DNA of 64,000 bases, from positions 26,516,358 to 26,580,357 of the forward strand of contig OY987244.1 of assembly GCA_963920765.1 (NCBI GenBank). The letters are read 5' to 3'. The DNA comes from Ulota crispa. Lineage: Eukaryota; Streptophyta; Bryopsida; Orthotrichales; Orthotrichaceae. Shown in pieces: positions 917 through 60,427 of this stretch. The translations under genes were made by a program, and so were the position numbers. The notes under the pieces were generated by a model. The model was not told where the DNA came from. It made no database searches and was given only the letters and a program-made list of their open reading frames with translations. Numbering within the stretch: the stretch's first letter is position 1; every line of letters starts with the position of its first letter.

Positions 917-1986
917 TTAGTGGTGTTTGGTTAGAGTCAACACTTTGGGCCAAAAAAAAGTGGTGACTTTATCCAAGCATTCATAATTAAGAAACACTTT
1001 ATTTGCTTTGTTTTCCCTAGTTCTAGTGGTTGCAAGTTTGGAGGTGCTTTCCCACCCATGTTCTTGATATACTACCAAACATTTTTTTAATTGATGAGTA
1101 AAACTAAACATTGATGAAAAGAAAATGTTGACCATATGCACTTGACCTTCACCCTTGAGCACCCATGCCATTTTCACCAAAACTAGGGTTTTGAGAGATT
1201 CACAACTTTGATGTATTGTATCCCAATTAATTAGATGATCCACAAAAAGTGACCATGGAAAATAGTGGAATACCTACTTAGAAAATGGCTTGTAAATTTT
1301 GGGAACAGTTGACTGTGGGAGATGGGAAATTATAACATTTGATCAAACAACATGTAATGATGAAATCTTAATTTTTGGTAGATAGTTGCTATTTGGTGTT
1401 TTTACAAATTCTATAAGCACTTGATTCATCTTAAATTTTGTGAGCAGCAAGGTTAGATGTGAATGCACACTCTTGTAAATTATTGAAGATTCTACTTCTT
1501 TTTATGTCAAGTTTTATGGCTTCAAATTGCTATTGCACAAAAAACTATGACCGGTTTGTGACAGTTGCCATAATTAGGGTTTAGAACATGTTTGTACCCT
1601 TGCTAACAAATTTCTTGCTACCAAAGCACACACAAGGAAGCTTGCAAGGGATATTGACCGGTTGTAGAGCTGCTTGCCACCACGCCCCGTATGGTATTTC
1701 ACCCAATCAAATTTCTTGCAGCACTTGTACAACATTTGACTTGCCTTGCCATTAGTCTTGGCATGAACAACTTGAAAGCCTTCATAATTGTAGTTTATAG
1801 CAAGATCAAAAAATTAGATCATGTGCCTCAAACAAGCCTTTGAAATCATGAGCAACAAAATTCCGTCGCTGGGGCTCTCAAGGATTAACCAAGCTCATAG
1901 TACATGCTTTGGGCAAATGGAGAGTGGGCCTGTGATCTTATCCATTTGTTGTTGTTACAAAAGTTGATGCTAACCAAGCACCACTG
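917..1986. mobile_element. CAGTGGTG-type MITE (Tc1/mariner-like) split by a nested TTAA element
   Basis: The left end reads TTAGTGGTGTTTGG and the right end CCAAGCACCACTG followed by TA. Tc1/mariner elements characteristically have CAGT termini and a TA target. The copy at 59884-60221 has the same ends and interior. Removing the nested element 1152-1884 plus one TTAA leaves about 333 bp, against 338 bp for the intact copy. Non-autonomous, with no transposase. Confidence 0.7.
1152..1884. mobile_element. TTAA element, CCCTTGAGC subfamily (733 bp)
   Basis: Starts CCCTTGAGCACCC after TTCA (1148-1151, a decayed TTAA) and ends GGGGCTCTCAAGGA before TTAA (1885-1888). It sits inside the CAGTGGTG MITE; the intact MITE copy has a single TTAA at the corresponding position, giving a clean empty site. 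Homologous interiors occur at 34223-36619 (inverted) and 46625-47020. No ORF of note. Confidence 0.75.
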
Positions 1987-2057
1987 TACAAGCTATTTCA
2001 AATAAGTATGCAAGTTATTTTAGTTGCTGTAACTGTACTTGTGATGCTAGTTCACGC

Positions 2058-2462
2058 TAGGGTTAGACCACCCATTCCTGATCAGTTACGCTCGTGTAGG
2101 ATAGCACATTAGAGTAACAAATACGACGCAACATTTTCTTTTGTGGCTTCATACGAAATATTGCGACACAAATTTTTTCGGATTTTTTCACCCAAAATTG
2201 AGTTATATACAATTTTTGACGTGCATAAAGTGTTCTAAACCCATACACAATCACTAGAATCTCCTAATCCCAATCATAGCCAAAATACTTCTTGCTCACT
2301 ACTTCCTACTTTCTTTTGGGATACATGTCATGACCTCATTCATCTTAATCTTAAAAAAGAAAAAAAATACGCATTCCAAAGCTTGGAAATAGGCTAGTTG
2401 GAGATTGCACACCCCAAAGGGTGGGTTTGGATCCCTGATTGGGAATGGGTGGTCCTACCTTA
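2058..2462. mobile_element. Diverged TAAGGTAGG-type MITE
   Basis: The inverted ends GACCACCCATTCCTGATCAG (left) and CTGATTGGGAATGGGTGGTC followed by CTACCTTA (right) enclose about 405 bp. The left terminal TAGGGTTAG is a decayed version of the family end. Confidence 0.5.
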
Positions 2463-3033
2463 ATTCAAAGAACAATTGAACTTTCTACTTGTAATAAGAG
2501 AGAGGTTCACTTTAGGTCACTAATAATATTCTAGGTAACAGTATATGAACAATAAGTGTGACTCAATTTGCCAAACTTCTGAAGGAATTATAATCTTCTT
2601 ATTCTCAATCAGAAAGTGTGTGAAGAATGTCAAATGACAAGGAATAGATAATTAATACTAATAATTAATTTATCCCAAATTTAGATACATAGTCAATTTG
2701 TGATTTTTTTACCCTGGCAAAGTAAAAATTATTCTTTTTTTTTTTTTAAACTTTTGACTGGAGATAAGCTCAATCATTGCATTAATTTCATTATTTTAGC
2801 ATTTCCTTGCACAATCATTGGTAAAATTATGAACCCCAACAATGCCTTTAAGATTTGACACTGTGAACATTTATTGAGCCTAGGCCGGGTACATTAGAAA
2901 GTGTGTGAAGTGGTTTTACCTCATATGACATTCCTATTGTACATCACAAAAACCTTGAATACAAAATCGTAGTTTAGTCCTTGTATGAACGAAATTATCC
3001 ACATGCACAACAGAGTGCAAGGAATTTTTTAGC
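2463..3033. other. Intergenic, no gene seen
   Basis: AT-rich, with an oligo-T tract near 2735-2747. No coding or repeat signal recognised. Confidence 0.4.
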
Positions 3034-3037
3034 TTAA

Positions 3038-3956
3038 CCCCTAAAAGACCATTGTCCCTAAGGGGGACAAATGGGATTTTGGGCAGGTACCTATGGCCTC
3101 AATTTTTGTCCTAATTTTTTGAAAGTTTTTTTGGAGATAGAAAAACACATTAGCTTTTGGGGAATATCAATTTTATTCCAATTGATGCCAGGGAGCAAAA
3201 GTTACGCCCAAATAAGCACAAATTTGGGGACTAGGGGCAGCAAAAAAATTCTTATAAAAACTTGAAAAAATATTTCATTTTTTTTTCTTATAGATTATAT
3301 CTTTGTCTACATCTGAAGCTTTGATTCATTCCATTTGAACTAGTTATGAGAAAGTTATGGACAATCTTGTTTTTTGGGCAACTCAAGCATCTTCTTGAGA
3401 AAATAACTTATAAACTTCATTTTTGAATGCAGGTTTAACATTTTTTCAGAAAAAATTGTTGGAGAGGGTGAAGTTTGCTTTCTAGAACAATCTCGCCATT
3501 GGGATTATTGCATTTCAATTCCATTGCAGGGTTATCAGCAATTTAAGTTTTTTTTCAATCTCATTCCTTCTTCTACCTAATTTTTTTTAAAGAATGAAAA
3601 TTAAGTATTCTTTTTTTTAAAAAAATTTCCGAGATTCCCAACTCAACTCCCCACTATGCAAAATAGAATTCCAAACTCTGTGGTGCAAAAATTTTAAGTT
3701 AAAAATGTTCAAAGTTTAAAATCCAGTCATGCAAGGTGCAAAAAAAGTGTGTTTTTTACACTTTAAATGCATTTGTCTTCCAATCTGTGTGGTCAAAGTT
3801 CTTGAGTTTTGTATGACACATTTTTATAGTAGTCTAGCACAAGATCCTATGGTCAGATATGCAAAATGCTTGATTTTCAAACTTTTTTACTCTTTGCCAT
3901 AGAAGTGGCAGTTTTGAGTGTCTTTTGACTAAATAAAGGCCATGGTCCTTTAGGGG
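3038..3956. mobile_element. TTAA element, 915-bp subfamily, copy 1 (919 bp)
   Basis: Flanked by TTAA at 3034-3037 and 3957-3960. Ends CCCCTAAAAGACCATTG and CCATGGTCCTTTAGGGG. Almost identical over its whole length, in inverted orientation, to 22490-23407. Just inside the left end is a perfect-stem hairpin (CCATTGTCCC / GGGACAAATGG, about 3048-3074). The 64-codon open frame inside (3071-3265) also occurs in the other copy but shows no domain, so I treat it as chance. Confidence 0.85.
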
Positions 3957-3960
3957 TTAA

Positions 3961-4430
3961 CCGGCCAGTATCCTATATTCTCTTGGGCCAACCAGTTGTC
4001 TATAGTATACTCCCAGCTAAGCCTATAGAAATTAAGAATGTTCTCTCTTTTTCCTCTCAAATAGTTAGTTTTTTTCCTAAACTTTTGAATTTAATTTAGC
4101 AATTCTCAAAACCAACCGGCTAGCTTGTAACTAAACCTGCATTCCTCATACACTAATGCACAATCTAAAACAATATAAAAAGATATTGCATCCATAAAAT
4201 ACATAGATGTACTTACTAGTCACTATTCAAGTACTTCACTCATGTGTACAAGTAGAGAAAAATAGATTATATGGTTCTATTGTACCACATCTTTGTTTTA
4301 TTGAGATGGCACATTGATACATTTTTCATGATTGCATTGAACTCCAAGGGTGGGGAAATAGGGGATTAATGAATTGTTTGTTGCAATAAGTACATGTCTT
4401 GGGGTCCTTTTATATCTTTTTTGGGACTTC
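3961..4430. other. Intergenic, no gene seen
   Basis: AT-rich spacer between two TTAA elements; nothing recognised. Confidence 0.4.
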
Positions 4431-4434
4431 TTAA

Positions 4435-5080
4435 CCCCTAAATGCCCAAGGCCTTTTTGAACTTCTTGACATATTCACGTAACTAAACAACCAATCAACT
4501 TTTTCATAAATTTCATCAAGTTTTTTTGAATTGTAATTGTACAAATTTAAACTAAACATGTTAAAGATTGCATGGAAAAATAAAACCCAACAATATCACT
4601 TATAGTTTGAAAGATTATAATGTTTGAATATGAGGGTGTTAAAATTGCAAAAAGTGACTTGAAGTCTTCCAATCCTCATTTTGCACGTTAAATCTAAAAA
4701 TTTGGTCACCAAAAAAATATGAGGTTTAAGGTCATTCCATGTTTAACTTTAATCAATTTATAGCTTTTGAAATCTACTCCTAATTTTTTTTTAAATGGAT
4801 TTTTAATGTGGAGTTTTCTCCAAGCTCTAGTGTATTTGAGGCTCATTTTCAAGATATTCCAACACTAAAAAACTCAAGATTGCAGTGGACACCCTTGTAC
4901 AAAATCTTGAGTAGAAAAATCATCAATATTTATTTTCAAAATCAAATTTTTTGATGTTGAATACATACTTCAATACAAACCCCCCATTACAAAAAATACT
5001 AAATATAGTGATTTGAAAAAGTTTTATTCATCTTTAAAATTTTGTAAACACCCAAACTAGGTGCCTTGGGCATTTAGGGG
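4435..5080. mobile_element. TTAA element, CCCCTAAATGCCC subfamily (646 bp)
   Basis: Flanked by TTAA at 4431-4434 and 5081-5084. The terminal inverted repeat CCCCTAAATGCCCAAGGC is perfect over 18 bp. No ORF. Likely parent type of the 62 bp element at 10230-10291, which keeps the same ends. Confidence 0.85.
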
Positions 5081-5084
5081 TTAA

Positions 5085-5739
5085 GGACCTTGTTGGGGCC
5101 TTGGGGGTTCATAATTTTGCTAATGCCTATGCCTAGAATACACATTCTACTGCTATACTAATATTGGGTTAGTACGTATACTAATATTGTGTTAGTCTTA
5201 AAGACAAGAATTCAACACATTTTTTGTATTTGATTGTGAGATACAAGAGAAATTTCAAGCAAATTTGCATTACATTCATATTAAATTTTTGTTTGGATTC
5301 TTAAAAAAAAAGAAAAAGAAAAAAGTATAACTTTTTTTTTTCACTCTCAACATACGACCTTCTACCGGTATGTAAGATCACTTGCAACTACTTTTTGATT
5401 GGTTTCAAACATACCCAATCTAATAGAAGTTTTTTTTAACAACTTTTATGACCAAGTAGGAGCTTCTAAATAGGGGATTTTTTCCCTTGTATTATACCTT
5501 AGATATTAAATCTTGAAGCGGCAAAATCATATAATGAAGATCACTTTCATTTTATCTCTTTAGGAACTGAGACTATACTATAGAGAAGCTTAACACCTAA
5601 GCGTCTAAAGAGCCCAATATAGCCAAAGCGGGTGCTTGGAAGTATGAAAGGGAGTAATCCAAAAACAATTGGATAAATATACGCAAAATGTCAAAGATAT
5701 TTTTCAATATTTTGCTACAACTTTGATAGTTTCATGTGT
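5085..5739. other. Intergenic, no gene seen
   Basis: AT-rich, with A- and T-rich low-complexity runs at about 5307-5340. No gene or mobile element recognised. Confidence 0.4.
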
Positions 5740-6186
5740 TTATTCATATCCAAGCAACTCATAAGAAAGGAAAAGCATATTCTGGCTAGGTAGATTGATG
5801 GTGTCCTTGGCTTTGTCTTCTTCATCTCCCCAATTTGTCGCATTTGCCTTCACTTCACTTCCCCAACTTACCACATTTCCATTTGCTCTTGAAGGGTTGT
5901 TGAAGTACAATGGAGTAAATATTTTGTAGTTATAAGAAGGTTCAGTGATACCAAACAATTAGTCTCCTTCTAACAAATGTGTGCCAACATTAGAAAAGTT
6001 TGGAAATAGTTTATAGTCTATATCACCCTCTTCCAATGCTTGTGAAAGTGGAGCAAGTTGAGGGTCCTCCATCTTGAATCCCACTATCTTCTCAACTCTA
6101 GTAAGAGGGCTTGAATTAATAAACTTGTCATCCACACATTCACCCAAATTGGACCAAAGCTCTTCCACCTTGTTTTCTTGATCCAT
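5740..6186 (-). pseudogene. Possible decayed small protein gene (one in-frame stop)
   Basis: On the minus strand an ATG at 6186 opens a 75-residue acidic, non-repetitive frame (MDQENKVEELWSNLGECVDD...). It ends at a TAA at 5959-5961, and the same frame stays open for 72 further residues to 5740. A 148-codon frame with a single stop and ordinary amino-acid composition is unusual in this AT-rich DNA and suggests a recently broken small gene or exon. I do not recognise the family. It could equally be two chance frames. Confidence 0.3.
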
Positions 6187-6457
6187 CTAATATGTGTTAG
6201 ACTACAAAAGAGCAATCACAAGAAATGATGATTGAGTGATGAAGGCTAGCTCTTGAAAATGTATATCTAAAACACATGCAACAAGAATGTAACTCAAGAA
6301 GTGTTGCCTAAAAGCCAAATAATAATGTTGTATTTATACATGCTTGTTCTAGTTCCATTGAAAGTAAAATCCATTTTTGAGACAACTTTTACATTCAATC
6401 AAACACAAAAAAACAAAAGATGCTTTGATTTAGCTTTTGCATTTACTAATCATCATA

Positions 6458-6563
6458 AAAAAGTAAAAGTATCTTAATTCGCCTTTTACATTCTATTACA
6501 CGTGAAAAAGTAAAAGTATCTTAATTCACCTTTTACATTCTATTACATGTGAAAAAGTAAAAG
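6458..6563. repeat. 47 bp tandem repeat, 2.2 copies, upstream of the PRCC-like gene
   Basis: Units at 6458-6504 and 6505-6551 differ at only two positions, and a partial third copy runs 6552-6563. Each unit contains AAAAAGTAAAAG and CCTTTTAC, which are complementary enough to form hairpins. It lies about 60 bp upstream of the TATA-like motif of the next gene, so it could affect that promoter. Confidence 0.75.
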
Positions 6564-6623
6564 TCTTTGTTGGAGGCCACTGTACTGTACAGTAAGAACA
6601 ACTCGGTACGCACATAACAGTGG

Positions 6624-6630
6624 TATAAAT
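6624..6630 (+). promoter_or_regulatory. TATA-box candidate for the PRCC-like gene
   Basis: TATAAAT lies 279 bp upstream of the ATG, in a short region richer in G+C than the surroundings. Position fits a core promoter with a leader of about 250 nt; no transcript evidence. Confidence 0.35.
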
Positions 6631-6902
6631 GGCGGGTTTCAATCGAGGTGGGTAGTCAGGGTACCGTCGGCGGGCCTCAATTCGCCAGTGCTCTGCATGA
6701 GTGACTGTGGCAAACTCAACATATTTCAATTGGCATTTCCTGGAGATCGTGTGTTTTTTGCTTCGCGAATCCCGAGAGGATTTTGATTTTGCAAGCTCTG
6801 CTGAGTTCTGTACAGTAGCGTATGTCGAGTTCATTTGGCTGTTTGGGCACTATCGGAGAAGCTAGTTTTTAGGGTTCGGATTTGCACTGAGAAATATCGA
6901 AG

Positions 6903-9080
6903 ATGGATTCGCTACTTGCAAGTTATGGAAGTGACGATGAGGACGAGCAAGAGGAGAAGCCTGTAATAATGCCAATCTCGATTCCCGCGCCCGAGTTGCC
7001 ACCACCGAAAGTTTCTTTATTCGGTCGCCTCCCAGCTCCGCGGAATTCTGGTTCCGGTGCTGCTGCTCCTCCTGGTTCATTGTTTGCATCATCTCTGCCT
7101 CCGCCACAATTGGAAGCGAAGAAGGAGAAAGACGGTGTCAAGTCCGAAGAGGAGGATGGAGCAGTTCAGAAATCCCCGCAGCCAGGCTTATTTGCGAAGC
7201 TACCTCCGCCGAAAGTTGAAGAACTCGGGACAGAGTATGCAAACCCTAATGATGGCTACTCGACGAAACCTTCTTTGTTTGCAGCTCTTCCGCCTCCTAA
7301 GGTTGAATTTGATAGTTCCAGGGTGAAGCTGGAGATTTCGCACAGTAGTAACCCTAAAGTGAAGAAGCAACCAGTGGCATTCAAACCTCCGATTGATGTA
7401 TCCATTCTTGAGGATGACGATGATGATGATTGGAGACCAGCGCAGAAGAAAGTTAAAGCTGAGCCTCTCTCTACGACCACGAGCGGAGGTGGCCTCTCAT
7501 CTCTTCTCCCGGCTCCCAAGCACAGTCTAGGGTTAGGGTCTACCTTGGGAGCTGCTCCTACTTCAGGCGGACGCCGGGCAGCTATGGAACTTGTCGAAAG
7601 CACAACTAAAGATGTGAAGACGGAACCAGAAATACTCGATTCAAGGATAGCATCCTCCAATGTTAAGAATGAAGCACATGCCTCACAGGCCCAAGTTCAG
7701 TACTATAACTCCGCTTATGCAGTGGATGAGAGCGCTGCTTTTGTTCCTCAGGTATGCTGCATAAGTGCAATACTTCATTGACTCCTGTTTTTCTTCCTTA
7801 TGTGGTACAGTAGACAGATATGCTACGCTTTAATAACAAGCTAGCAGCTCTTACATGTTGAAATTAGGGTTATGTCTTAATCGTAAGTACTCCCTCTGTC
7901 CCTCTAAATACGTCAAAAAAGCTTCTGCAAAGGATTAACTGTGTTTTTAGTCTTTGTGCTAGTGACACATGCATTCTAGAATCAATATACCTTCTACCAA
8001 ATGTATGCAAAATATCTAGCTTTGATGTTACCATTTGGGCACCCAAATTCCATGCAAAAGGTACCATATTTGTGCATGTTGCCAGCTCCTCACTATTGAT
8101 GATTTAAAGATTAGTAGCAACAATGATACCTCATATGGGCAAGGCCAAGCTTGCTAGGAGAGGAATGCTCCGTATCGCTTAACTTGCCCCCATGAGATTA
8201 TTGAACATGGCAAATGCTTTCTTAACTTTTGAAATCAGGAAAAGGGAACTTTTAAGTGGTACAATGAATGTATCTGATTTGGACATTTTTAGAGGGACAG
8301 AGGGAGTAAATTGCATGGTGATTGCAAAACTAGGGGATTCCTTTTTGAGAAGATTGGCGGTTTCTAACTTGTTGTTTGTTAACTGCAGTATTCAAATGAA
8401 CCTTATGAATGGACAGCGCCACAGCCTGCTCAGGAGACACCGCATAATGGTAATAATCACTATGAACCACAGAATTGGCAGTACTCCGGGAGTGTTCCTT
8501 CTTACTCTACTCAAGCCTCGTACGCATCTGCAAACTCTGCACCAGTTGCTGATCCAGTGGCGCAAGTCTTGCAAGCTGAGAGACGAAGAGGAAGGGAAGA
8601 TAAAATGGCTGCGCCCAATGTGATTGAGGTTAAACAAGCTGATTTGACTGGTGGTGCTAAACTGCGGGAGGATCAAATACGATCAACTGGGATTGCATTT
8701 GGTCCAGCTTATCTGGTAAGACCTAGTGTCTTCTTTCATGTGCTGGTCATTTTTAGTATATATAGATTCATCCACCGGTTAGATTTTGCTAACTCATTAT
8801 TGATGTGCTGTTTCTCATGGGACAGCTCTGTTTTACATTTTTATCCGTGGCAGTTTCGTACTGGCATGAATATTTGTATGGGAGAGCAGCAATGAACAGC
8901 TTTTGTCTTCTTTTCTTGCAGCCGGTTTCGAGTAAAGACAAACCTTCAAAGTTACAACGAAGGAAGCACCAAATTGGCACACTCTTGCAGGATAGCAAGG
9001 CAAGAGAGATGGAGTTGTTAGACCGTCGTGCGAAAGGCAACTTGACGAAAGCAGAAACTCAAGCTAAATATGGCTGGTAG
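6903..9080 (+). CDS. PRCC-like protein (proline-rich, conserved PRCC C-terminus), 444 aa
   Basis: Three exons: 6903-7751, 8389-8715 and 8922-9080, all joined in phase 0 at GT-AG sites (CAG/GTATGC, CTG/GTAAGA). The N-terminus MDSLLASYGSDDEDE resembles the start of PRCC proteins. An (S/G)LFxxLPPPK-like motif recurs at residues about 38, 59, 95, 124 and 179 in a proline-rich region. An acidic run sits at about 160-166. The last 80 residues carry the family signature: the stretch around IRSTGIAFGPAYL, a basic RRKHQIGTLL segment, and the terminal KAETQAKYGW. PRCC proteins are nuclear; human PRCC is known as a papillary-renal-carcinoma fusion partner and interacts with MAD2B/splicing factors, while the plant role is less defined. 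Intron 1 holds a Stowaway-type MITE. Family assignment is confident, cellular role inferred. Confidence 0.92.
7890..8306. mobile_element. Stowaway-type MITE in PRCC intron 1
   Basis: Ends CTCCCTCTGTCCCTCTAAA and TTTAGAGGGACAGAGGGAG with flanking TA at 7888-7889 and 8307-8308, typical of Stowaway (Tc1/mariner) MITEs; 417 bp. Its interior matches about 50090-50573 in inverted orientation. It fills most of the 637 bp intron but stays clear of both splice sites. Confidence 0.85.
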
Positions 9081-10020: not shown

Positions 10021-10229
10021 ACAAGACATAACATTCACGAGGAGCTGTGTTACTTATCAAGAGAATGAAAGCCAGGATCTGTTCTGTGCAAAATTACATG
10101 GAGGTACCAAGTGCTGCAGGAAATAAAGCGGTGCTAATACCTTCATTGAGAGGTACTTGCTTTCACAACTAGTGGCGACGGTACTTCACTTTCGGATTAC
10201 CATTGAAAAGAAAGACACTTGTATTTTAA

Positions 10230-10291
10230 CCCCTAAATGCCCACGGCACCCAATTTGGGTGTTTTCATTTGATACCGTGGGCATTTAGGGG
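10230..10291. mobile_element. Minimal 62 bp TTAA element
   Basis: TTAA (10226-10229), then CCCCTAAATGCCCACGG, a 28-base middle containing the near-palindrome CACCCAATTTGGGTG, then CCGTGGGCATTTAGGGG and TTAA (10292-10295). The 17 bp inverted ends are perfect. It is essentially only the terminal repeats of the 646 bp element at 4435-5080. Confidence 0.85.
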
Positions 10292-10295
10292 TTAA

Positions 10296-18430: not shown

Positions 18431-19265
18431 AACACATCTAGTATGCAGGGCCAATTTATTGGGTGCTCTAAGGACATCTGCAATGCACCTGGCAAGCAGG
18501 CCCAGTATACTATGTTTAATCTAGAACACCATATTAGGTAAATTGGGAAAAAGAGTACATTTTGAGACTTTCACTATTTTTTTCATTATGGAAAATTAGC
18601 ATATTACAAAAGAAAAAATACGGATTTTAGAAAAAATATGGATTTTTTTTTGTACAATATTGAAATCTTTGGGATTTCCTACAAGAATTTCAAATAATTT
18701 TCAACTTTGAGCTATAGCTATGCCTACATTTATTGAATGTGAGATTAANNNNNNNNNNNNNNNNNNNNNNNNNNNNNNNNNNNNNNNNNNNNNNNNNNNN
18801 NNNNNNNNNNNNNNNNNNNNNNNNNNNNNNNNNNNNNNNNNNNNNNNNNNNNNNNNNNNNNNNNNNNNNNNNNNNNNNNNNNNNNNNNNNNNNNNNNNNN
18901 NNNNNNNNNNNNNNNNNNNNNNNNNNNNNNNNNNNNNNNNNNNNNNNNAACACATCTAGTATGCAGGGCCAATTTATTGGGTGCTCTAAGGACATCTGCA
19001 ATGCACCTGGCAAGCAGGCCCAGTATACTATGTTTAATCTAGAACACCATATTAGGTAAATTGGGAAAAAGAGTACATTTTGAGACTTTCACTATTTTTT
19101 TCATTATGGAAAATTAGCATATTACAAAAGAAAAAATACGGATTTTAGAAAAAATATGGATTTTTTTTGTACAATATTGAAATCTTTGGGATTTCCTACA
19201 AGAATTTCAAATAATTTTCAACTTTGAGCTATAGCTATGCCTACATTTATTGAATGTGAGATTAA
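18431..19265. other. Unmerged contig overlap around a 200-N gap
   Basis: Bases 18431-18748 (318) and 18949-19265 (317) are the same sequence apart from one T in a homopolymer (9 versus 8). They directly flank exactly 200 Ns (18749-18948), a typical placeholder length. Starts (AACACATCTAGTATGCAGGG) and ends (GAATGTGAGATTAA) coincide exactly with the gap edges. The duplication is therefore most likely artificial and true sequence is about 517 bp shorter. Confidence 0.9.
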
Positions 19266-22199: not shown

Positions 22200-23439
22200 T
22201 AAGGTAGGAACACTCATAAGCGTTAGTGTCCCCATAACCATCACCTCTAAAATCTTGGAAAATATGTAGAAGTAAATAGATATAATTACAAGGATGTACA
22301 ACACGTGAACATGAAATCTTAGTGTTAGTTATGGGTACAATGGCAATATTCTCTTTAAAAATTCACCAACTTATTCTCACAGTATCCAAAAAATACATTC
22401 AAAAATGCAAACTTATTATTTATTTGTTGCTAACATGATTCTATAATTTGCTAAATGTTTATTAATAGTCATCATACTCAAACCTTTAACCCCTAAAGGA
22501 CCATGGCCTTTATTTAGTCAAAAGACATTCAAAATTGCCACTTCTATGGCAAAGAGTAAAAAAGTTTGAAAATCAAGCATTTTGCATATCTGATCGTAGG
22601 ATCTTGTGCTAGACTATTATAAAAATGTGTCATACAAAACTCAAGAACTTTGACCACACAAATTGGAAGATAAATGCATTTAAAGTGTAAAAAACACACT
22701 TTTTTTGCACCTTGCATGACTGGATTTTAAACTTTGAACATTTTTAACTTAAAATTTTTGCACCACAGAGTTTGGAATTCTATTTTGCATAGTGGGGAGT
22801 TGAGTTGGGAATCTCGGAATTTTTTTAAAAAAAAAGAATACTTAATTTTCATTCTTTAAAAAAAATTAGGTAGAAGAAGGAATGAGATTGAAAAAAAACT
22901 TAAATTGCTGATAACCCTGCAATGGAATTGAAATGCAATAATCCCAATGGCGAGATTGTTCTAGAAAGCAAACTTCACCCTCTCCAACAATTTTTTCTGA
23001 AAAAATGTTAAACCTGCATTCAAAAATGAAGTTTATAAGTTATTTTCTCAAGAAGATGCTTGAGTTGCCCAAAAAACAAGATTGTCCATAACTTTCTCAT
23101 AACTAGTTCAAATGGAATGAATCAAAGCTTCAGATGTAGACAAAGATATAATCTATAAGAAAAAAAAATGAAATATTTTTTCAAGTTTTTATAAGAATTT
23201 TTTTGCTGCCCCTAGTCCCCAAATTTGTGCTTATTTGGGCGTAACTTTTGCTCCTTGGCATCAATTGGAATAAAATTGATATTCCCCAAAAGCTAATGTG
23301 TTTTTCTATCTCCAAAAAAACTTTCAAAAAATTAGGACAAAATTGAGGCCATAGGTACCTGCCCAAAATCCCATTTGTCCTGCGTAGGGACAATGGTCCT
23401 TTAGGGGTTAAACTAACGCTTATGGGTGTTCCTACCTTA
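22200..23439. mobile_element. TAAGGTAGG-type MITE interrupted by a 918 bp TTAA element
   Basis: Ends TAAGGTAGGAACACTCATAA and TTATGGGTGTTCCTACCTTA. Removing 22490-23407 plus one TTAA leaves 318 bp, homologous to the intact 316 bp copy at 326-641 (inverted). Confidence 0.85.
22490..23407. mobile_element. TTAA element, 915-bp subfamily, copy 2 (918 bp)
   Basis: TTAA at 22486-22489 and 23408-23411. Ends CCCCTAAAGGACCATGG and CCATTGTCC..GGTCCTTTAGGGG type. Near-identical (by eye about 98%) to 3038-3956 in inverted orientation. Inserted in a MITE whose intact relative has one TTAA at the junction. Confidence 0.9.
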
Positions 23440-24478: not shown

Positions 24479-24482
24479 TTAA

Positions 24483-24713: not shown

Positions 24714-24717
24714 TTAA

Positions 24718-32168: not shown

Positions 32169-32172
32169 TTCA

Positions 32173-32412: not shown

Positions 32413-32416
32413 TTAA

Positions 32417-36623: not shown

Positions 36624-38824
36624 TGAGTATCTCCCCATTTGAGGGCCGGACAAGAGTTGAGAGCTGGGTAATAGTGGGTATGCAGGTAAACTGCGTGGCA
36701 AACCAGGCGGTAAGCCAGGTGGTGATGAGTTTGAGGTTCAGGGATTTTATTATTTTTTCAAACTGGCTTGTATTGTTCTCTTGCCCTTCATATTTTAAAA
36801 CAAGGGCAATTGTAGTTGGCCACCATCTACCATGAAGTAATCAGCTGAGCCTCAGCCACCCTTCAAATGTCCATGAATGTACGCAGCCAACAACACTGTA
36901 TATTTAACTCTTGCTCACAATCATGGGCTTCGAAAGATGGTGACGTGTCAAATTTTATGTGTTTATTTCCTATTTTGTCCTAGTCCTTTTCTATGGAAAC
37001 AAGTGAAGACTATGACATTTGCCACACTATTTTGCCCACTCAGTATATGCAATGAACTCAACTTTGCTGTAAAGCCATAAAAGTCCTCAATGAAAGTTCT
37101 ATGAAACTTTATAAAGTCTAACTTACTGTACATACAAAACTTGGGCTGGGCTGGGGTGTTCGATGGCCAGGGTGAAGTGTGAACTGACCTCCTCATTGTC
37201 CTTATTTTGAATGAATAGGGCCGGGAGCTCAGTCAGCTATTTTGTGAGGTTGTGGGCAGAGCAGCTTTTTCACATTTCAATTTTTTTGAGAATCTTAGAT
37301 TTTTACCATCACAAGATTGAATTTGGAAATTTTGACTTCACATTTGGATTCAAAGATCACAATTTAGTTGTGAACTTGGGAGGAGGATATAATTGAATAT
37401 TACAAAATAAGGGCAGTTTATTACTTTTACACTTGCCTCAAAATTATAGAGCTTTTTTCACCCTACCCAAAAAACATGGATGTGCAATGGACGGAGGCAT
37501 GACGCCCCATTCATCCAAGTAGGGGGGGGGGCAATGAGAGGATCAGTTCACCTCAAGCCTGTTACATGGCATGCTGTTTTGTGGGGTTAGGCTAGAAAAT
37601 CTTAGCTTTTTTACAGATAAGAATGAAAGTAATAATGTGATAATCTGCTCCTTTGGTTGGAGTTGGTAAATTGTAACTTTCTCTAGGGTTTTAAGATTAA
37701 ATTAGGGTCCTTGAATCCAAAGGTGAATTTAAAATTCCCTAACTCAACCTCTTTGTGATAAACATCTAAATCTTGTCATTATTAGGCAAGTGAAAAAGCT
37801 TAAAATTTTCCACGTTGTCTCCATCACAAGGCATGCCATCTAACCTTAGCTCCAAACTTGATGTTTGTTGTTTCAACATCAATCAGTTCCTTGTCCACTT
37901 TTGCCAAAGTGTACAAAAACCCTCAAAAACCAAGTGTTGACTCAAGATATCAAGAGTATTCGCATGTTAGTTGCCAAATTTGATGTGCTTAAAAGTTACA
38001 TATATTTTGGAGGAGTCCCCAAAATTATTGTCCCTCATCTTTGCTCACCATATGTGCTTCATAAATATAGGCTTGGTATATTGCACTCACATGTTTGTGA
38101 GATCAAATTAGAGAAGCTCAACTTTTCTTACAAACAAAGGTGGAAATAAGAAAAAACCCTTGTTTTTGTAGTTGGTCAATTTTATCTCCTTGCACCACTA
38201 CAAACTAAATCAAGGATACTAAATCCAAAAAAAATCAAAATCCCCAAATTTTATATTTTGGTGGTAAATTTTTAAACTCTTAAATTTTTGTCATGGTAAA
38301 AAATTTGAGTTTTCCACCCTACACCCACAAATATGTACGTGCAACTTATGTGCAATATACTAAGCCATAAATCACCAACTAGAATACAAGACAAAATTTA
38401 ATTAATTGAGAATGAATAATAATTTTGTAGTGCCATTATTTGGCACGGTAGAATTGAGCGGTACCACAAGAACATTTGGAAGATCTTGAAACACTTATTG
38501 TCCAAGTTTGGCACATGTCAAACCTTTAGCAAGTAATCGTGCAATTCCATGGATCATACCAACATGTTGATCCTAGATAAGAAACTTCCATGTTTTCACT
38601 TTAAAAACAATGTTGAAATTTTAGTTTTCCCAAAAATCAAACTCGGAAACTTGAACTGATTTATATTTCAGTGCAAAAGCCTTCAGTTTTATTGCGAATG
38701 CAATTGGAGATACAATAAACAAAATACCGTGTATACGTGCGGGTTATTACTGTTTCACCTTATTTTGTATTATCCTAAAAAGGTTGGGGTTTCACAGCTT
38801 GCGTACAGATACAAGTATAAAGAA
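36624..38824. other. Intergenic, no gene seen
   Basis: 36620-37400 has several medium frames on both strands (up to 77 codons) but none recognisable. A G11 homopolymer occurs near 37520. Otherwise AT-rich. Confidence 0.4.
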
Positions 38825-38825
38825 G

Positions 38826-39142
38826 GGAAAATTTCATGGATACCCTGAAGTTTGCGATATTTGCATAAAAACCCCTGCTTTTTCAGAAATTGCACAAATG
38901 TCCTTGATCAAAATTTTCACGGGTTTATATTGCTGTGTTTGTACTTCCTTCATGACCAATGTTGAAAGAGGGAATGCAATGAAACAAAGTAGAAGCAACA
39001 TGTGCACAAAGGAAGAAGGGAAGTGACATGCACAACAAATAAATGCCTAAAAATCATGGTCCAAGGGTGTTTGTGCAATTTTTGAAAAAGCAAGGGTATC
39101 TATGCAAATATTGCAAACTTCAAGGGTATTCATGAAAGTTTC
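38826..39142. mobile_element. GGGAAAATTTCATGG fold-back MITE, copy 1 (317 bp)
   Basis: Arms of about 80 bp pair: GGAAAATTTCATGGATACCC and TTTTTCAGAAATTGCACAAA at the left versus TTTGTGCAATTTTTGAAAAA and GGGTATTCATGAAAGTTTCC at the right. Related copies at 39203-39757 and 48503-48824. Confidence 0.8.
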
Positions 39143-39202
39143 CTATGAACAATACATCAAGTGTCAAAAGAGTGTATCCAAAAGCCCAATGTGATAAACT
39201 TA

Positions 39203-39757
39203 AGAGAAAATTTGATGGATACCCTTGAAGTTTGCAATATTTGTACAAATATCCTTGGTTTTTCAGAAATTGCCCAAATGTACCTTAACCCCTAAAGGAT
39301 GTTGCCTACCAAAAGTGTTGTATGTATTTCTATGAAGATTATTTAGTACTTGAAGAAATGGCTTTATGAGAAATGCCAAAAATTCCCCAAAAAATCCAAG
39401 TTGATCAACAATATGTTTGTGACTTGGCTTGAAATCTACAACTCCAATGGATTCATGTGCTACCCAAATGCCCCATATGTATACAATACGGGAGGCTGTA
39501 TACAAAACATCAACATCCTTTAGGGGTTAATTGTGACACGATTGTTTTGTTGTGCACAACAATTTCTTCCCCCTCTGTGCGCTTGTGGCTTCTTTCCCCA
39601 TTCTACATGTGCACAAAGGAAGAAGAAAGTGTTGTGCACAACAAAACCAAATTATGAAAATTATAGTCCAAGGGTATTTGTGCAATTTCTGAGAAATCAA
39701 GAATATTTGTACAAGTATTGCAAGCTTCAAGAATATTCATCAAAATTTCCCTAAACC
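39203..39757. mobile_element. GGGAAAATTTCATGG fold-back MITE, copy 2, interrupted
   Basis: Same arms as copy 1. Without the TTAA element 39289-39526 plus one TTAA it is about 313 bp, matching the 317 and 322 bp intact copies. Confidence 0.75.
39289..39526. mobile_element. TTAA element nested in a MITE (238 bp)
   Basis: TTAA at 39285-39288 and 39527-39530; perfect 16 bp inverted ends CCCCTAAAGGATGTTG. No ORF of note. Confidence 0.85.
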
Positions 39758-46600: not shown

Positions 46601-46624
46601 TTAAGCTTAACCCTTAGCCCTTAA

Positions 46625-47020
46625 TCCTTGAGCACCTAGCCATTTTCACCAAAATCAAGCTTTCTGGAGACCTACATCTTTGATGCATCATATCTCAGTC
46701 AATTGGATGATTCACAAAAAGTCACCATTGAAAACGGTGGAACACCTACTTGGAAAACGGCTTGCAAGTTTTGGGAACAATTGACTGTGAGAGATGGAAG
46801 ATTATAACATTTGATCAAACCAAGGGTATTCCATGCAATTGAAGCTTTCTAGGCACTTATACAATGTTTGACTTGCCCTCCCATTACTCCACTTGCATGG
46901 ACCACTTGAATGCCTCAATAATTGTAGTTTATAGCAAGGTCAAAAAAATAGATTTGGTACCTCAAAATGGCTTCTAAAATTAGGTGAAAATACTTTAAGC
47001 CCTTTGGGGACGTTCATGGG
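46625..47020. mobile_element. TTAA element, CCCTTGAGC subfamily (396 bp)
   Basis: TTAA at 46621-46624 and 47021-47024. Interior aligns with the left part of 1152-1884 (for example CATTTTCACCAAAA, TTGGGAACA.TTGACTGTG). Internal deletion derivative. It shares its right TTAA with the next element. Confidence 0.6.
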
Positions 47021-47024
47021 TTAA

Positions 47025-48502: not shown

Positions 48503-48824
48503 GGGAAAATTTCATGGATATCCCTGAAGTTTGCCATATTTACATAGATACACTTGTTTTTTCAGAAATTACACAAATACCCAATTATCAAAATCTCCAA
48601 GCGTTTGTTTTGTTGTGCATGTCACTTCCCTTTTTCCTTTGTGTGCACGCTGCTTCTTTTTTGTTTCATTACATTCCCTTCTTCAACATTGGTCATGAAG
48701 GAAGTAAGGGCACAACAATACAAATGCTTGAAAGTATTGGTCTAAGGGTATTTGTGTAATTTCTGAAAAAGCAAGGGTATCTATGTAAGTATTGCAAATT
48801 GCGGGGTATCCATGAAATTTTCCC
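48503..48824. mobile_element. GGGAAAATTTCATGG fold-back MITE, copy 3 (322 bp)
   Basis: GGGAAAATTTCATGGATA and TATCCATGAAATTTTCCC ends with approximately 80 bp arms, homologous to 38826-39142. Confidence 0.8.
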
Positions 48825-49712: not shown

Positions 49713-49716
49713 TTAA

Positions 49717-50089: not shown

Positions 50090-50577
50090 TGTGCAGGTCA
50101 TCTGGTACCGGTACCGTAGGCAAGCTTGGCTTTGCCCATATGAGGTGTCATTGTTGTTACTAATCTTTAAATCATCAATAATGGGCTAGTAGCATGCACA
50201 AGTATAGTATTTTTTATATGGAATTTGGGTGCCCAAATGACAACATCAAAGGTGGAGATTTTGCATGCATTTTGTAAATGGAACAGTTGCCTACAACTTA
50301 ATTTCGTGCATTCCACAACTGACCAATTGCACATTGACATATTCAAATTCCTTTAATGAGTGCTAGCAATTGCCCATTTTGTTCACAAAATTCCAAGGTT
50401 AAGGAAGTTAATATATTTCCTGTGACCATGTAAATATATTAGCTTATGCACATTGGTCAATAATGGGTTCCATTTTGCAATATTGTGGGAGTGAATGAAG
50501 TTATGTTGTAGGCCGCGGTACATTGATTCTAAAATGCATGTCACTAGCACAAAGACTAAAACACAATTAATCCTTAA

Positions 50578-51494
50578 CCCCTAAAGGACCAATCCCTTTT
50601 CTTTGTGAAAAACACTGAAAATTGCCACTTTTGGGGGATGAAAGGAATGGTAATTTTTTTTTCTTTTTTTTTGAAATCTAACTATAAGATCTTGCTCTAG
50701 ACAATATGAGGTACTTGGGGAAAAAAATGAGCTTATTCCAAATGAAAAGGAGTGAGATCTTTACATGTGAAGTGAAGAAAAATGTTTTTTTTGTATTGCC
50801 CAAAAAATTCAGAAGCCGTTGACCACTCCTATATCAAAAAAATTGCTCTACGCAAAGTTGTGGTTTTTTTTCTTGTGTAGAAGACCAAGTTAGGTATGTG
50901 CGGGAAAATTTTCAATTCAATTGGAACTATACAACACATGGGAAAAAATAGTAAGTAAAAAGAAGTAGAGAATGACTCAACACACTAAATTGTTAAGAAT
51001 TTAATTATTAAAATGAAAAATGCAAATCCCAACAGTTATAATGTTGTGATAAACAATCTTCATCCTTTGGTTTTGTTTTTTTTCCAAAATATTGAAAATT
51101 GAGTAAAATAAAGGACTTCAAAGTTTATTTTAGAGTAGAGAATCTAGAACTGCCCGCAAACAAAAACTCCTCATGACTTTCATCTCATCTAACAAAATTG
51201 AATGATTCCAAGCTCCTCACGTCTATATAAGTCTAAAGAACCTATTTCAGATTTTTATTTGAAAAAAATGAAAGTTTAAAGAAGTTTTTGGCTGCCCGGG
51301 GAGCAACATTTTCCAGATTTTCATGCATAACTTCTTCAATAAATGTCAAAATGAAGAAAAAATTACATTCCCACGTAGATTTTTGAATTCCTCACCTTCA
51401 ATAAAAGTTTCAGAAAATCACGCAAAGTAGTTTAGCCATAGGTACATGCCCAAAATCCCATTTGTCCCCCAAAGGGACAATGGTCCTTTAGGGG
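50578..51494. mobile_element. TTAA element, 915-bp subfamily, copy 4 (917 bp)
   Basis: TTAA at 50574-50577 and 51495-51498; ends CCCCTAAAGGACCAATCCC and ACAATGGTCCTTTAGGGG; subterminal TTTGTCCC/GGGACAA hairpin before the right end. Confidence 0.85.
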
Positions 51495-51496
51495 TT

Positions 51497-51992
51497 AAGG
51501 CATCACCAATCTAGCATTGAGAACAATCTAGCAAAAATATTGCTATTTTTTGATTGGTGTATAATTAGAATGTCAAATTACTATCATTGGAAGCGTATAC
51601 AAAAATTTGTCAAATAAATAAAATAACACAGAGTATTGGAAATTGGACAATCAAAATAAAACCCATCGAAAAATCACAAAAGGACTAACAACATGGCAAA
51701 CCATGCCCAATAAAGAAAATCCCAAGTAATGGCACACCAAACTCTAAAAATTTGGTGTGCTATTACCTTGAAATTTCTTTATTGGACACGGTTTGTCATG
51801 TTGTTTGTACTTTAGCTATTTTTCAATAAATTTTATTTTGATTGTCCAATTTCCAATACCATATGTTATTTTATTTATTTGACAAGTTTTTGTATACGCT
51901 TCCAATGATAATAATTTGACATTCTAATTATACACCAATATAAAAATAATCTTTTTATGGGGTGGTTCCCGGTGCTGGATTGATGATGCTCT
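51497..51992. mobile_element. Long fold-back MITE, GCATCA(C/T)CAATC ends (about 495 bp)
   Basis: Arms of about 200 bp pair almost throughout (TTAGAATGTCAAATTA / TAATTTGACATTCTAA; GGACAATCAAAATAAA / TTTATTTTGATTGTCC), meeting at GGCACACCAAAC/GTTTGGTGTGC-like centre near 51740. Directly abuts the preceding TTAA element. Confidence 0.75.
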
Positions 51993-52036
51993 TAGGAAGG
52001 AAGCTTTTTGGACGTTTTTAGAGGGACAGAGGGAGT

Positions 52037-53255: not shown

Positions 53256-56200
53256 TCAATTCTGACGACGCACGGCGAGAGCAGCATTGTCATCTCTGGA
53301 GGCTGGAAGGAGGACCAGAACGTCGTGAACCTCAGGCTTGGAAGCTACTCCTCGATCTTTGTCCATGGCATAACAAATGTACACGGTGTCTACGATGTTG
53401 CTCAACACTCGAACAAAGAGAATGAGAACCAGCAACATAATCAGCCAACTTAGAACCGATGCAATCAGCCTCTGGTCCCTCGCCAAGCCTGTTGACAGAG
53501 ACAGTACTCCATACACCTGCCAACAAGAGCCAAAAGCCAAAAAACATTGAGAAAAAAATAAGAGCACATGCACCAAAACTAACGTAGAAGATACTAAAAA
53601 GTGCTTCACGATATGTCCCACGTCCCACTGAAATCCGAGCATGTTCAGCCAAGAGTCCTACATGACAGCACTTTTTGATAGTTTTGGCATGAGACTTCAC
53701 TGAAGGTTTGAGTAACCCATTTTGCTACACCCAATTTTCAGCTCAAGTCCCATCAATATTTTTGCATAAAATATTCATGGCTTTCTTTAGGGAGCGACTA
53801 GGTGGACACCCCCTAGTAGCTACACAAACACCTCCATAGCTCAACCTATTAAATTTGACATTATTATTACTCAGAAATATGAAATAAAATCAAAACAATA
53901 CTTTAGCATACATTTGGGTTTACAAGCGCTGCAAACATACAACAAATCTGCCTCATTTGTGAGGCGGTCAGGAGTCAACCAATAAATGAAGGGAGCAACT
54001 AGTTCAACTCTTAAGCCCGTCACAAATGAACAAATGAGGCAAATTTGTTGTGTGTTTGCAATACTTGTAGACGCAAATGTATACTAAAATATTACTTTGA
54101 TTTTACTTCATATTTCAGCATAATAATAATCTCAAATTTAATAGGTTCAACTATGGGGGGTGTCCACCTAGTAGCTCCATTTCTTTGATACTCCTTTTTT
54201 GCCTAATGAAGCTAGGATCTGGGGTTGAGGTGGGACTTGCAGAGATGGGCCGTGGGACGTACTGTGAAGCGCCCCTAAAAGTACTGTTCAAGATGCACGG
54301 TAGCAAAAGCAGAAAGAGAAGGATGCAGCTTAACCCTTAAACAACCCAAAGGCCCTTTGCGACCAGTACAATACGGGGTATTTTTCTTGTATTTGGAATG
54401 GATCCACATTACATTCGAGACCAACAAAGAAGTTGGAGAATAGATCAATGGGGTTCTAGTGAGCTACTTGAGATCCCAAATTAAAATTCCTTATTGGTAG
54501 TGACAATTATACGTCAGCGTATATACTATGCCCTATGGTCGTTTAAGGGTTAACTTACCAGTAGGGCGTATGCTCCGGAGAGGACGACTGTCACCATAGC
54601 CAGAAGTCGATCTGAGATCACTTCCACAAGCACTGTAGACAGCAAGTTCCTCTTCAAGAGATTGTACGTCATAACGGCTGATGTGTAGAAGCTCTCTCCG
54701 GTGATGGCTGCGAAGTTTGAAGTGAACCTCGTGAAGAACTCCACTGCTTCGAGCACCCACTGCAGACAAGCACGGATAAACATCGACAGTGCACCTGCTT
54801 CGCCTCGTTCGTTGTCTGCTTTGTTCAGTGCTCCTCGAATTACTCGCACGAATGCCACAACGAGACCTGCCAGGCAGGCTGTACCAAAGGACGGCCCAAA
54901 CGCAACACTGCATCACAAAAAACGAAAAAAACCACGAGGCTTAGAAAGTAAAAGAAGGGCTTTCAAATTGCATAAGAAACTCTTACATAGTGATAAAAAT
55001 GTCTTGTACCCGAAGACATCTCTCCACAGTTTACAATGATCTCTCAAAAGTCACATAGCAACATATGTTGCAATGCTTAAAATCCTTGAAACGTAAACCT
55101 GAAAACAAGGATTGCTGTCATTGAACATCAATCACAAGAAAACCAGCAGAGTATACTTTTTTAGATACTTCAAAACTACCGGTTACAACTACAGAGCTTT
55201 CACAAACTAGTCAGGGTCTCTAAAAGCGCAATCTAGCTTGAGGTTTTCCAGCAAAGGCAGCAGTAGAAATTTCACAAAAACCGTGATGACAATTCTTCAA
55301 AGGGTAGCACAACAATCAGACTGAAAATTTGAAAGAGAAAATTGCATCAAAAAAGTTACAAACCTTAACGCACGCCGAGTTGCATTGACAGTGGAAGAAC
55401 CCGCTTGAGCAAAGTACCACTGCGAAATGGCACCACTGATGGTAAAGACCTGAAGTTGAGCCACGATCATAGAGGACCAGAGGATGGCAAATCCAGAGAG
55501 GTACTGGTAGTATGGCACCCACGCAGCAGTCTCCCAAACACAACACGGAGTGTCAGTGCCCTGGACACACCGTTGCGAAGAATGATCCAACACCTCCGGA
55601 TTCGTCACCACCTTCCCATTCATATAAGCATATCCCATAAACACAAGAAATGGCACACAGAACAGAAAGAGCGCCAGTGACAAACTAGGAAGTACAAACA
55701 GAAGGGCCAAGTTCTGATGTAAAGCCTCAGAGGAAGTCTGCAACACGCGTACGGTCAATTCCACACGACTCCAGTTGGAATACACGACGTAAATCAAGAG
55801 CCCACACATGAGCAATATGATCCCGAACAAAGCGTATTGCCCGGAGGAGTCGAACTCGGTTCGGCACTCGATGTGGCGTTGACAGACGATGAACCACGTC
55901 AGATCTAGTGCTATTGGAAGAAGCACAAATAACGGTAAAGTGGCATAGATCAGTTGCTTCGTGTATACTCGAAGCAGGTACAACACTCCCAACGCAAATG
56001 GCCCACTCAAGGCGAATGTCAACCCCAAAGTGATCCATATCGGTACAGCAGACGGTGCATTTTTCAGTATTTGAGGGGTAAGGACGTGTAGAACATCAAA
56101 TCTTGGCTCCACTTGCAGATTCTTTGGAATGGAGCACCCGTGAGTCGGGTCATAATGTGCAGAATCCACGAGTTCATAGTCAGGGTTGGAGTGCACCACG

Positions 56201-58400: not shown

Positions 58401-58670
58401 TGACTGGTGAGTGATGACATCACCGGTAGTAAGTACGAATGTTTCCGGTTATCAACTGGTAAGGATATCTCCCCAGGGTGTCAATCCATCAGCTCAAAGA
58501 GGATCCCTTATTGATATGGTCCGGGTGTCAACAATGGATTTCCTTTGCGGATTGATGTAACTTTTGTAAAAGAGTGATAATTAGGGGTGAGGTAGAAGGC
58601 TCCAATTTTGTTTTGGCAGTTAGAACTGCTCATATAAAGGTACCAAAAATAGTGTAGAGAGCTTCCTTAA

Positions 58671-58935
58671 CCCCTCAGCGCCCGGAGTTTGAAAGCCTTT
58701 TTAAGTGTTCTAAAAGACATGCTTGCAATTGGAGTTTCCTTGTGAGCTAGAAAATTAGATTTAGGGGATCCAACCTTTGGAATTACTAATTCAGAGCAAT
58801 CGCTATGAGTTGTTCTTGATTTCTGATTGTTTCACTGAATGAACAAGGAGTCTATACCAATCAAACTGCGTTGACATTTAGGGGTTCACATTCCCCATCA
58901 ACAATACAGTATAATGTTGACTGGGCGCTCAAGCG
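58671..58935. mobile_element. TTAA chain, element 1 (265 bp)
   Basis: TTAA 58667-58670; CCCCTCAGCGCCCGGAG to TGACTGGGCGCTCAAGCG; TTAA 58936-58939 shared with the next element. Confidence 0.75.
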
Positions 58936-58939
58936 TTAA

Positions 58940-59853
58940 CCCCTAAAGGATCAAGCCCTCTTTTTAGCAACATAGCAATTTTGAGCAGGTACTTGTGATT
59001 GGAGATTCTCATGTTTTAGGCTAAAATTTTAATAGAATGTGGGAACGAGGTTTACTTTCATAAGCACTAAATTTCATGACATTTGAAGAATGAAAAAGAA
59101 GACATGGTCTAATATGTTGTTTTTTTCACTCAGCAGGCAGCCCAGGCAAATTTTTAAAAATTACTTTTTTCAAAAACAAAAAGATCTACTTGGTTTAGGA
59201 GATTTATGTGAATGTGGGAAGCTTTGAATTGTTTTGTTTTGATCAATGAGATGAAAGTTATGAAGAGTTTTTGTTTGCGAGCAATTATGGATTCTCTACT
59301 CTAAAATATACTTTGAAATCTTTTATTTTACTCTATTTTCATTATTTTGGAAAATAAACAAAGCTTGAAGATGTAAATTGTTCATTGCAACATTACAACC
59401 TTTGGGATTGGCATTTTTCATTTCTATAATTAAATTCTCAACAATTTAGTGTTTTGAATCATTCACTACTTCATTTTACTTACTATTTTTTCCCCATATG
59501 TTATATAATTCCGAATGATTTGAAACTTTTCAGACATGTACCCTACTTAAGTGGAATAAGGAATCTAGAGAAGCACCACTCACACAGCCTTTTTTCCTTA
59601 AGAATTTCACCTTCTAAAGGGTTGTTGCCTAGTTTTGTATAAAGGCGTTTTTGAATATTCAAACTGCTGTATCTTTCAATCTACGCTGTGAAAAATTCTG
59701 ATTTTTTTTTTTTGAGTCTTCTCAAACTATCATGCTACAAGATCCTATGGTTACATATGCATAAAAATGTTATTATTTTCAAATTTGGTTGATGCTCTAA
59801 AAATGGCAATTTTGAAGAATTTTTGGTGAAAACATTGCTTGGTCTTTTAGGGG
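58940..59853. mobile_element. TTAA chain, element 2 (915-bp subfamily, 914 bp)
   Basis: CCCCTAAAGGATCAAGCCC to GCTTGGTCTTTTAGGGG between TTAA 58936-58939 and 59854-59857, both shared with neighbours. No ORF above 62 codons. Confidence 0.85.
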
Positions 59854-59857
59854 TTAA

Positions 59858-60423
59858 CCCTTAAATGATTGTAGGGCATAGTACAGTGGTGCTTGGTTAG
59901 CGTCAACCTTTGTAAGAGCAATAATTGGATAAGATCAGAGCCCCACTCCCCTTTTGCTCAAAAGCATGTATTATGAGCTTGGTTAAGGTCAAGTGCTTGC
60001 ATATGGTCAACGTTTTCTTTTCATCAATTCCCATTTTGACTCTTTATTTAGAAAGGCATTTGGTTAGTGTATCAAAAACATGGATGGGAAAGCACCTCCA
60101 AAGGTGCAACCCCTAGAACTAGGGAAAGTAACCCAAATGGAGGGTTTGTTTATGATCAATGCTTGGATAAGGTCAACACTTTCTATAAGCCCAAAGTGTT
60201 GACGCTAACCAAGCACCACTATATATACGTTGTCATGTAATTGGCATTTGCTACTAATAAGAAGTTTTAATTTGGGATCTCAAGTAGCCCGCTAGAACAG
60301 CTTTGATCTATTCTTCAACTTCTTTGTTGATCTCAAATGTAGTAAAGATGTGAACCTATTCCAAATACAAGAAGAACACCTCGTATTGTACTAGTTGTAG
60401 CAACACGCTCAAGCGTTCAAGGG
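59858..60423. mobile_element. TTAA chain, element 3, interrupted by a CAGTGGTG MITE
   Basis: TTAA 59854-59857 and 60424-60427; CCCTTAAATGATTGTAGGGC to CTCAAGCGTTCAAGGG. Interior equals 54334-54549 inverted; about 226 bp without the nested MITE. Confidence 0.8.
59884..60221. mobile_element. CAGTGGTG-type MITE, intact copy (338 bp)
   Basis: TA then CAGTGGTGCTTGGTTAGCG at the left, CGCTAACCAAGCACCACT at the right followed by ATA. Tc1/mariner-like ends and target. The 54334-54549 relative reads CATAGTATATACG with no insertion, supporting a TA target. One TTAA near 59977 is the empty site for the insertion seen in 917-1986. Confidence 0.8.
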
Positions 60424-60427
60424 TTAA

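Follow-up and report, generated by a model that had tools for sequence, protein, structure and literature searches.

The 64,000-base window analysed here (G000:C3:26516358-26580357), which comes from the 274.8-Mb genome (157 contigs) of the moss Ulota crispa, harbors a set of TTAA-flanked elements that are, with a probability of about 0.95, non-autonomous members of the piggyBac superfamily, that is, miniature inverted-repeat transposable elements (MITEs) moved in trans by piggyBac transposases encoded elsewhere in the same genome. This reading is supported by transposase genes found in the genome, by their catalytic aspartates (DDD) and cysteine pattern, by terminal homology between MITEs and transposase loci, and by empty sites with a single TTAA.

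The ends were located by a scan for TTAA followed by CCCYTNARNGNCC, with an exact TTAA and at most 2 of the 15 scored positions deviating. The scan found 34 ends of the TTAA+CCC(C/T)T type in the window (15 on the plus strand and 19 on the minus strand), whereas 30 first-order Markov shuffles averaged 2.4 and never exceeded 6. Pairing of the ends delimited 16 elements, 14 of them with an exact TTAA on both sides; in the other two (1148-1888 and 32169-32416) the left flank is TTCA. A few further ends, such as those at 49716 and 16214 on the minus strand, have no recognisable partner. The elements range from 66 to about 920 bp, with 2,401 bp for the one that holds a nested insert, and their interiors differ; they belong to more than one family. 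Counting the nested element once, the 15 footprints cover 9,658 of the 64,000 bases (15.1%). Stop-to-stop frames reach at most 117 amino acids in the 16 elements, which therefore look non-coding. The initial annotation had described about 18 TTAA-flanked elements with CCC(C/T)T.A..G.CC ends, filling about 15% of the window. The ends and flanks were confirmed and the share was borne out, while the number is a fair one, given 16 delimited elements and a few partnerless ends. Its single transposon family did not stand, but the subfamilies of different length and interior that it also noted did.

Because TTAA was used in picking the window ends, a genome-wide count of the 13-mer CCCCTAAAGGACC without the TTAA condition is the fairer test. 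This 13-mer occurs 9,597 times, against 3 for the reversed control, and TTAA precedes 85.0% of these exact termini: TTAACCCCTAAAGGACC has 8,154 exact occurrences, with 0 in the reversed control. The 17-base pattern TTAACCCYTNARNGNCC is found at 29,788 sites, again with 3 in the reversed control. If every one of these ends were paired, the genome would contain about 14,900 elements. Scaling from the window (19 perfect ends per 9,658 bp) gives, as a rough extrapolation, about 15 Mb or 5.5% of the genome. The window is richer than typical, since its density of perfect ends (19 in 64 kb) is about 2.7 times the genome average (29,788 in 274.8 Mb).

The initial annotation had proposed to look for a piggyBac transposase (DDE_Tnp_1_7) gene flanked by such ends. 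Such genes are present, and some lie within elements that carry these ends. At least 120 matches to PF13843 (DDE_Tnp_1_7) were found in the genome, the best with an E value of 1.3e-73; the figure is a lower bound from 116 of 528 candidates scored, four genes giving two matches each. Twenty transposase loci, given L numbers below, were examined together with about 4.2-4.5 kb of flanking DNA on either side; they were picked by score and few stops, not at random. Two of them, L009 and L018, are 90.5% identical over 5,029 columns (1863-6890 versus 1897-6923), with the transposase inside. Their similarity sets in at the left TTAA, which is TTCA in L018, and ends a single base beyond the TTAA on the right; the two represent one and the same element, with lengths of 5,027 and 5,026 bp when both target copies are included. 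Between L012 and L024 the similarity on the right stops 3 bases past the TTAA. Thus CCC-starting inverted ends are bounded by homology on both sides in L009/L018 and on the right side in L012/L024, while in six further loci they are placed by the motif only. Both ends were assigned, by motif, in 8 of the 20 loci, and the elements so delimited measure 5.0-6.3 kb.

In addition, some window MITEs resemble the termini of transposase loci. The right end of the MITE at 4431-5084 aligns with the left end of L012 (49 columns, 85.7%), and so does the MITE at 10226-10295 (37 bp, 89.2%). The left 58 bp of the MITE at 50574-51498 are 84.5% identical to the right end of L011. Furthermore, the last 590 bp or so of L011, up to the TTAA, are related at 73-76% to dispersed copies (39 of the 40 scored, besides itself); one of these copies, the MITE L029 with the left end TTAACCCCTAAAGGACC, shares 591 bp with this right arm at 74%. 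Such terminal homology is a stronger link between MITEs and transposases than end pairs picked by the motif.

The encoded proteins are related to structurally characterised piggyBac transposases. The frames of L019 and L023 resemble piggyBat (9c0f; E value 2.6e-24 for L019) and 6x67 (4.1e-20 for L023; listed as 'Transposase'), which we take to be the Trichoplusia ni (T. ni) piggyBac; these two frames had no other match in the PDB at an E value of 0.001. The first two catalytic aspartates are invariant in all nine aligned frames. The third is found in L019, L024 and L014, and five frames stop short of that position. L019 aligns aspartate for aspartate with 9c0f, and the aligned residues presumably form the catalytic triad. 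A C-terminal cysteine pattern was detected in 15 of the 20 loci with one substitution allowed and in 10 under strict matching, against 0 of 20 for a control stretch. The matched frame is broken by stops in 15 loci and is stop-free in L019, L022, L023, L024 and L026. One scan of viral contigs confirmed no relatives of the transposase. In L011, a long 12-base tandem repeat, whose translation repeats HTYI, follows the transposase frame at about 5870-6050 and beyond.

Nine of the 20 loci (L014, L021, L009, L018, L017, L010, L020, L022 and L019) share a stretch of about 70-145 amino acids that lies upstream of the transposase domain and is encoded on the same strand; its identity to L014, where it lies at 2436-2960, is 35-44%. 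It is inside the element in the five that could be delimited (L009, L018, L014, L010 and L017), and in L020 the distance is about 4 kb. Pfam gave no match at an E value of 0.01 for four upstream frames, that of L014 among them. The structural model is helical and good in part, with a mean predicted local distance difference test score (pLDDT) of 57.5 and about 75-91 for residues 21-60; a fold search with this model found no PDB match at an E value of 0.001 (56 at E values up to 10). The domain is therefore probably helical, as far as the model goes. L013 has a different upstream region, in the transposase's own frame with a stop codon between the two. An N-terminal extension thus seems more likely there than a second gene, and a separate second gene in this element is thought unlikely.

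Empty sites, which the initial annotation had proposed as a check, were sought on a small scale. Joined flanks served as queries, 18 in all: one for each of the 16 elements, one for a palindromic neighbour and one for the array of three. They were compared with a 262-kb sample made up of the window and the 20 transposase loci, which is not a random sample. Eight matches spanning the junction were obtained from five of the queries; the other 13 had no spanning match in this sample. Three paralogous sites are clean, with a single TTAA, in agreement with piggyBac: that of 22486-23411 at 503-325, that of 1148-1888 at 60138-59881, and that of the array 58667-60427 at 9075-8980 of L018. Since these sites hold a single TTAA, an 8 bp duplication is excluded at all three. 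The matches for 35460-36382 (one) and 39285-39530 (four) were not counted, as gaps or changes fall at the junction.

The array at 58667-60427 consists of three adjoining elements in head-to-tail order, neighbours having one TTAA in common. Because the array has an empty site with a single TTAA, the sequences indicate that the three elements piled up at one TTAA. Junctions of the form GGGGTTAACCCC number 1,074 in the whole genome, against 3 in the control. Among the 1,138 TTAA of the 262-kb sample, 52 are in GGGTTAA and 44 in TTAACCC, and 2 sites have both, which equals the expectation under independence. Genome-wide, about 4.9% of GGGGTTAA sites (control subtracted) have CCCC on the other side too, versus about 1.8% by the extrapolated number of TTAA. 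This excess is modest and may reflect clustering; as the sample fits independence, a preference for inserting beside the element's own ends is not claimed.

A mechanism for these insertions can be proposed by analogy. In insect piggyBac, a passage of PMC7351741 describes seamless excision through a TTAA hairpin and integration at TTAA. In the moss, transposases encoded at other genomic sites, by elements about 5-6 kb long, would mobilise the MITEs in trans, presumably acting, as the insect enzyme does, at the CCC(C/T)T.A..G.CC ends. A hairpin over the four flanking bases would be formed before the end is joined to a TTAA target. The outcome would be TTAA on both sides of every insertion, and excision could be seamless. 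Each insertion would also bring TTAA targets at its own ends, so that head-to-tail arrays sharing one TTAA could arise.

Several alternatives were weighed against piggyBac. The TTAA tetramer is common in A+T-rich DNA, as the 1,138 copies in 262 kb illustrate, but the chance that the ends are an accidental pattern of such DNA is vanishingly small in view of the 29,788 matches against 3 in the reversed control and the 34 window ends against a shuffle mean of 2.4. A similar trace would be left by MITEs of the PIF/Harbinger type, duplicating 3 bp (TAA/TTA) and moved by Harbinger-type transposases of the same genome, given that TTA and TAA both lie within TTAA and that 3 and 4 bp duplications are inseparable by the string; moreover, at least 150 matches to PF13359 are present in the genome. 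However, in a small test on five such loci, out of the 150 matches, the end motif was missing from the short flanks of 1.5 kb around the domain, even with 2 substitutions allowed. Only one of the 16 elements, 59854-60427, matched one Harbinger-type locus (L041), at positions 26-59, 164-370 and 307-362, and the matches reach no terminus. It is with piggyBac transposase loci that the ends and arms show similarity. We therefore regard a Harbinger origin as highly improbable. Kolobok transposons also target TTAA, and some window families have no tie to a transposase-bearing locus, so Kolobok or another TTAA-targeting superfamily might move at least some subfamilies. This too is very unlikely, since the CCC(C/T)T.A..G.CC motif of the window elements is also found at the termini of piggyBac loci with a transposase, although only for L009/L018 were the boundaries set without reference to the motif.

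Other observations, together with the abundance of PF13359, weigh against assigning the window elements to piggyBac. Duplications of 2 bp (TA), 3 bp (TAA/TTA) and 4 bp in an invariant TTAA leave identical letters; as the strings cannot separate them, it is the transposase family that decides for 4 bp. The third catalytic aspartate is an asparagine in L023, and since several of the stop-free transposase matches are also partial, no copy is claimed to work. The eight loci with both ends assigned were chosen by the motif itself, and 12 of the 20 have no such assignment. End pairs 4.5-6.5 kb apart surround the transposase in 10, 9 and 6 of the 20 loci (at least 11, 12 and 13 of 16 bases identical), but such pairs also occur around 133, 64 and 34 of 400 anchors placed at random in the window. 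As the middle threshold gives 9 of 20 loci but also 64 of the 400 anchors, positional pairing was rejected as stand-alone proof, and position alone is an argument of moderate weight. For the L011 element no left end could be located, and the right arm may come from a truncated remnant next to it. Finally, two window MITE groups are tied by sequence to transposase-bearing loci; the others share the end motif alone.

The individual window elements fall into several groups. Two family A MITEs, at 3034-3960 (923 bp) and 22486-23411 (922 bp), both with TTAA on both sides, lie about 18.5 kb apart in opposite orientation and are 98.3% identical over 932 columns. As the next best genome copy among the matches listed is 93% identical, the comparison suggests a fairly recent movement of this family. 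Family A (22486-23411) has at least 40 further genome matches, 1 of them partial (40 of 3,704 candidates scored). Among eight copies taken with their flanks (L030-L037) both ends are present in six, all six being flanked by TTAA with different neighbouring bases; the left end of L034 is decayed (CTAA), and the fetched stretch of L037 started within the element. The MITE at 50574-51498 (921 bp), with the L011-like end, is related to family A. Family B is represented at 4431-5084 (650 bp, TTAA on both sides) and likewise has at least 40 further genome matches, 1 partial (40 of 4,166 candidates scored). The smallest element, at 10226-10295, is a minimal MITE of 66 bp with TTAA on both sides.

The element at 1148-1888 (737 bp; right flank TTAA) sits within a member of the 59854-60427 family. 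Two relatives were found: one at 46621-47024 (400 bp), with decayed ends, and one at 34219-36623, the 2,401-bp element with the insert, in which 34258-34558, 35315-35470 and 36381-36623 correspond to segments of 1148-1888. The nested MITE that interrupts it, at 35460-36382 (919 bp), has TTAA on both sides, and its joined flanks resemble 1546-1242. The MITE at 32169-32416 (244 bp; right flank TTAA) has an 85% identical copy at 631-876 of L012, in the oriented locus. The end scan also gave MITEs at 24479-24717 (235 bp, CCCCTAAGC ends) and 54330-54553 (220 bp, CCCTTAAAC ends). The array consists of 58667-58939 (269 bp), 58936-59857 (918 bp) and 59854-60427 (570 bp). The element at 39285-39530 (242 bp) sits in an unrelated palindromic repeat, a copy of a family of about 320 bp and of another kind (48503-48824, 38824-39143 and 39200-39755).

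Other repeats are present. At the right TTAA of 50574-51498 starts an imperfect palindrome of about 500 bp (51496-51994, 83%) with no piggyBac end motif, probably another MITE type. A near-perfect palindrome of 223 bp (93%) lies at 23934-24156, and a direct repeat of 318 bp with 99.7% identity (18431-18748 and 18949-19265) is perhaps a recent local duplication. The window genes, which include a serine hydroxymethyltransferase, a choline-transporter-like protein and a member of the plant family DUF868, fit a land plant; the plant origin read from the sequence by the initial annotation was correct, the host being a moss.

The moss elements share with T. ni piggyBac and piggyBat the DDE_Tnp_1_7 domain, the catalytic aspartates, the C-terminal cysteine-rich domain, the TTAA target, the single-TTAA empty sites and ends starting with CCC, as piggyBac ends do. 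They differ in the moss host, in the 5.0-6.3 kb of the transposase-bearing elements, whereas T. ni piggyBac has about 2.4 kb, and in a long region upstream of the catalytic domain, with a conserved domain there in nine of the 20 loci. Like plant PIF/Harbinger MITEs, the window elements are short, with inverted ends and a target in which a TWA duplication can be read into TTAA; unlike them, their end motif is absent from the five Harbinger-type loci examined and present at piggyBac loci. A passage of PMC9942856 cites piggyBac-derived MITEs in two coral genomes (PMC2872659); compared by description only, these are likewise non-autonomous and attributed to piggyBac. The moss differs from animal hosts of piggyBac MITEs in its kingdom, and it has 29,788 perfect ends in one 275-Mb genome.

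The statement of the initial annotation that piggyBac is rarely reported from land plants agrees with the literature searched, although the abstract of PMC10813416 names plants, beside insects and fungi, as sources of piggyBac, and a table of a fern genome lists a trace of 1,230 PiggyBac copies (122 kb, 0.00%; PMC6890710). No report of piggyBac elements in mosses was found in the titles and abstract openings of partial lists of the open-licence literature; a moss genome paper (PMC10619864) was discarded, as the word there is 'piggybacking'. A survey of MITEs in 207 plant genomes, 4 of them bryophytes, sorts them into five main superfamilies plus a special group; neither 'piggyBac' nor 'TTAA' occurs in its main text (PMC12550479). 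The main text of the Ulota crispa genome note (cbUloCris4.1; PMC11803377) has neither 'transpos' nor 'repeat'.

These results describe a real, large piggyBac expansion in a moss, which the initial annotation had interpreted correctly, and both the host range and the scale are apparently new for this known superfamily. Tentatively, and with somewhat more doubt than belief, mosses could host an old, diverse and very successful piggyBac radiation that is unclassed in plant repeat annotation, in which one transposase lineage gained a conserved N-terminal helical domain, possibly a plant-specific DNA- or chromatin-binding module; moss piggyBac MITEs would then be filed as PIF/Harbinger or as unknown. 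The superfamily is best known from animals, whose genetics relies on piggyBac as a workhorse tool, but very little has been written on where it occurs naturally among land plants. Should mosses harbour these elements by the thousand, transposable element libraries for plants may lack a major class, and moss genetics would gain an insertion set and natural excision sites. Vertical inheritance versus uptake from another lineage would also become testable for moss piggyBac.

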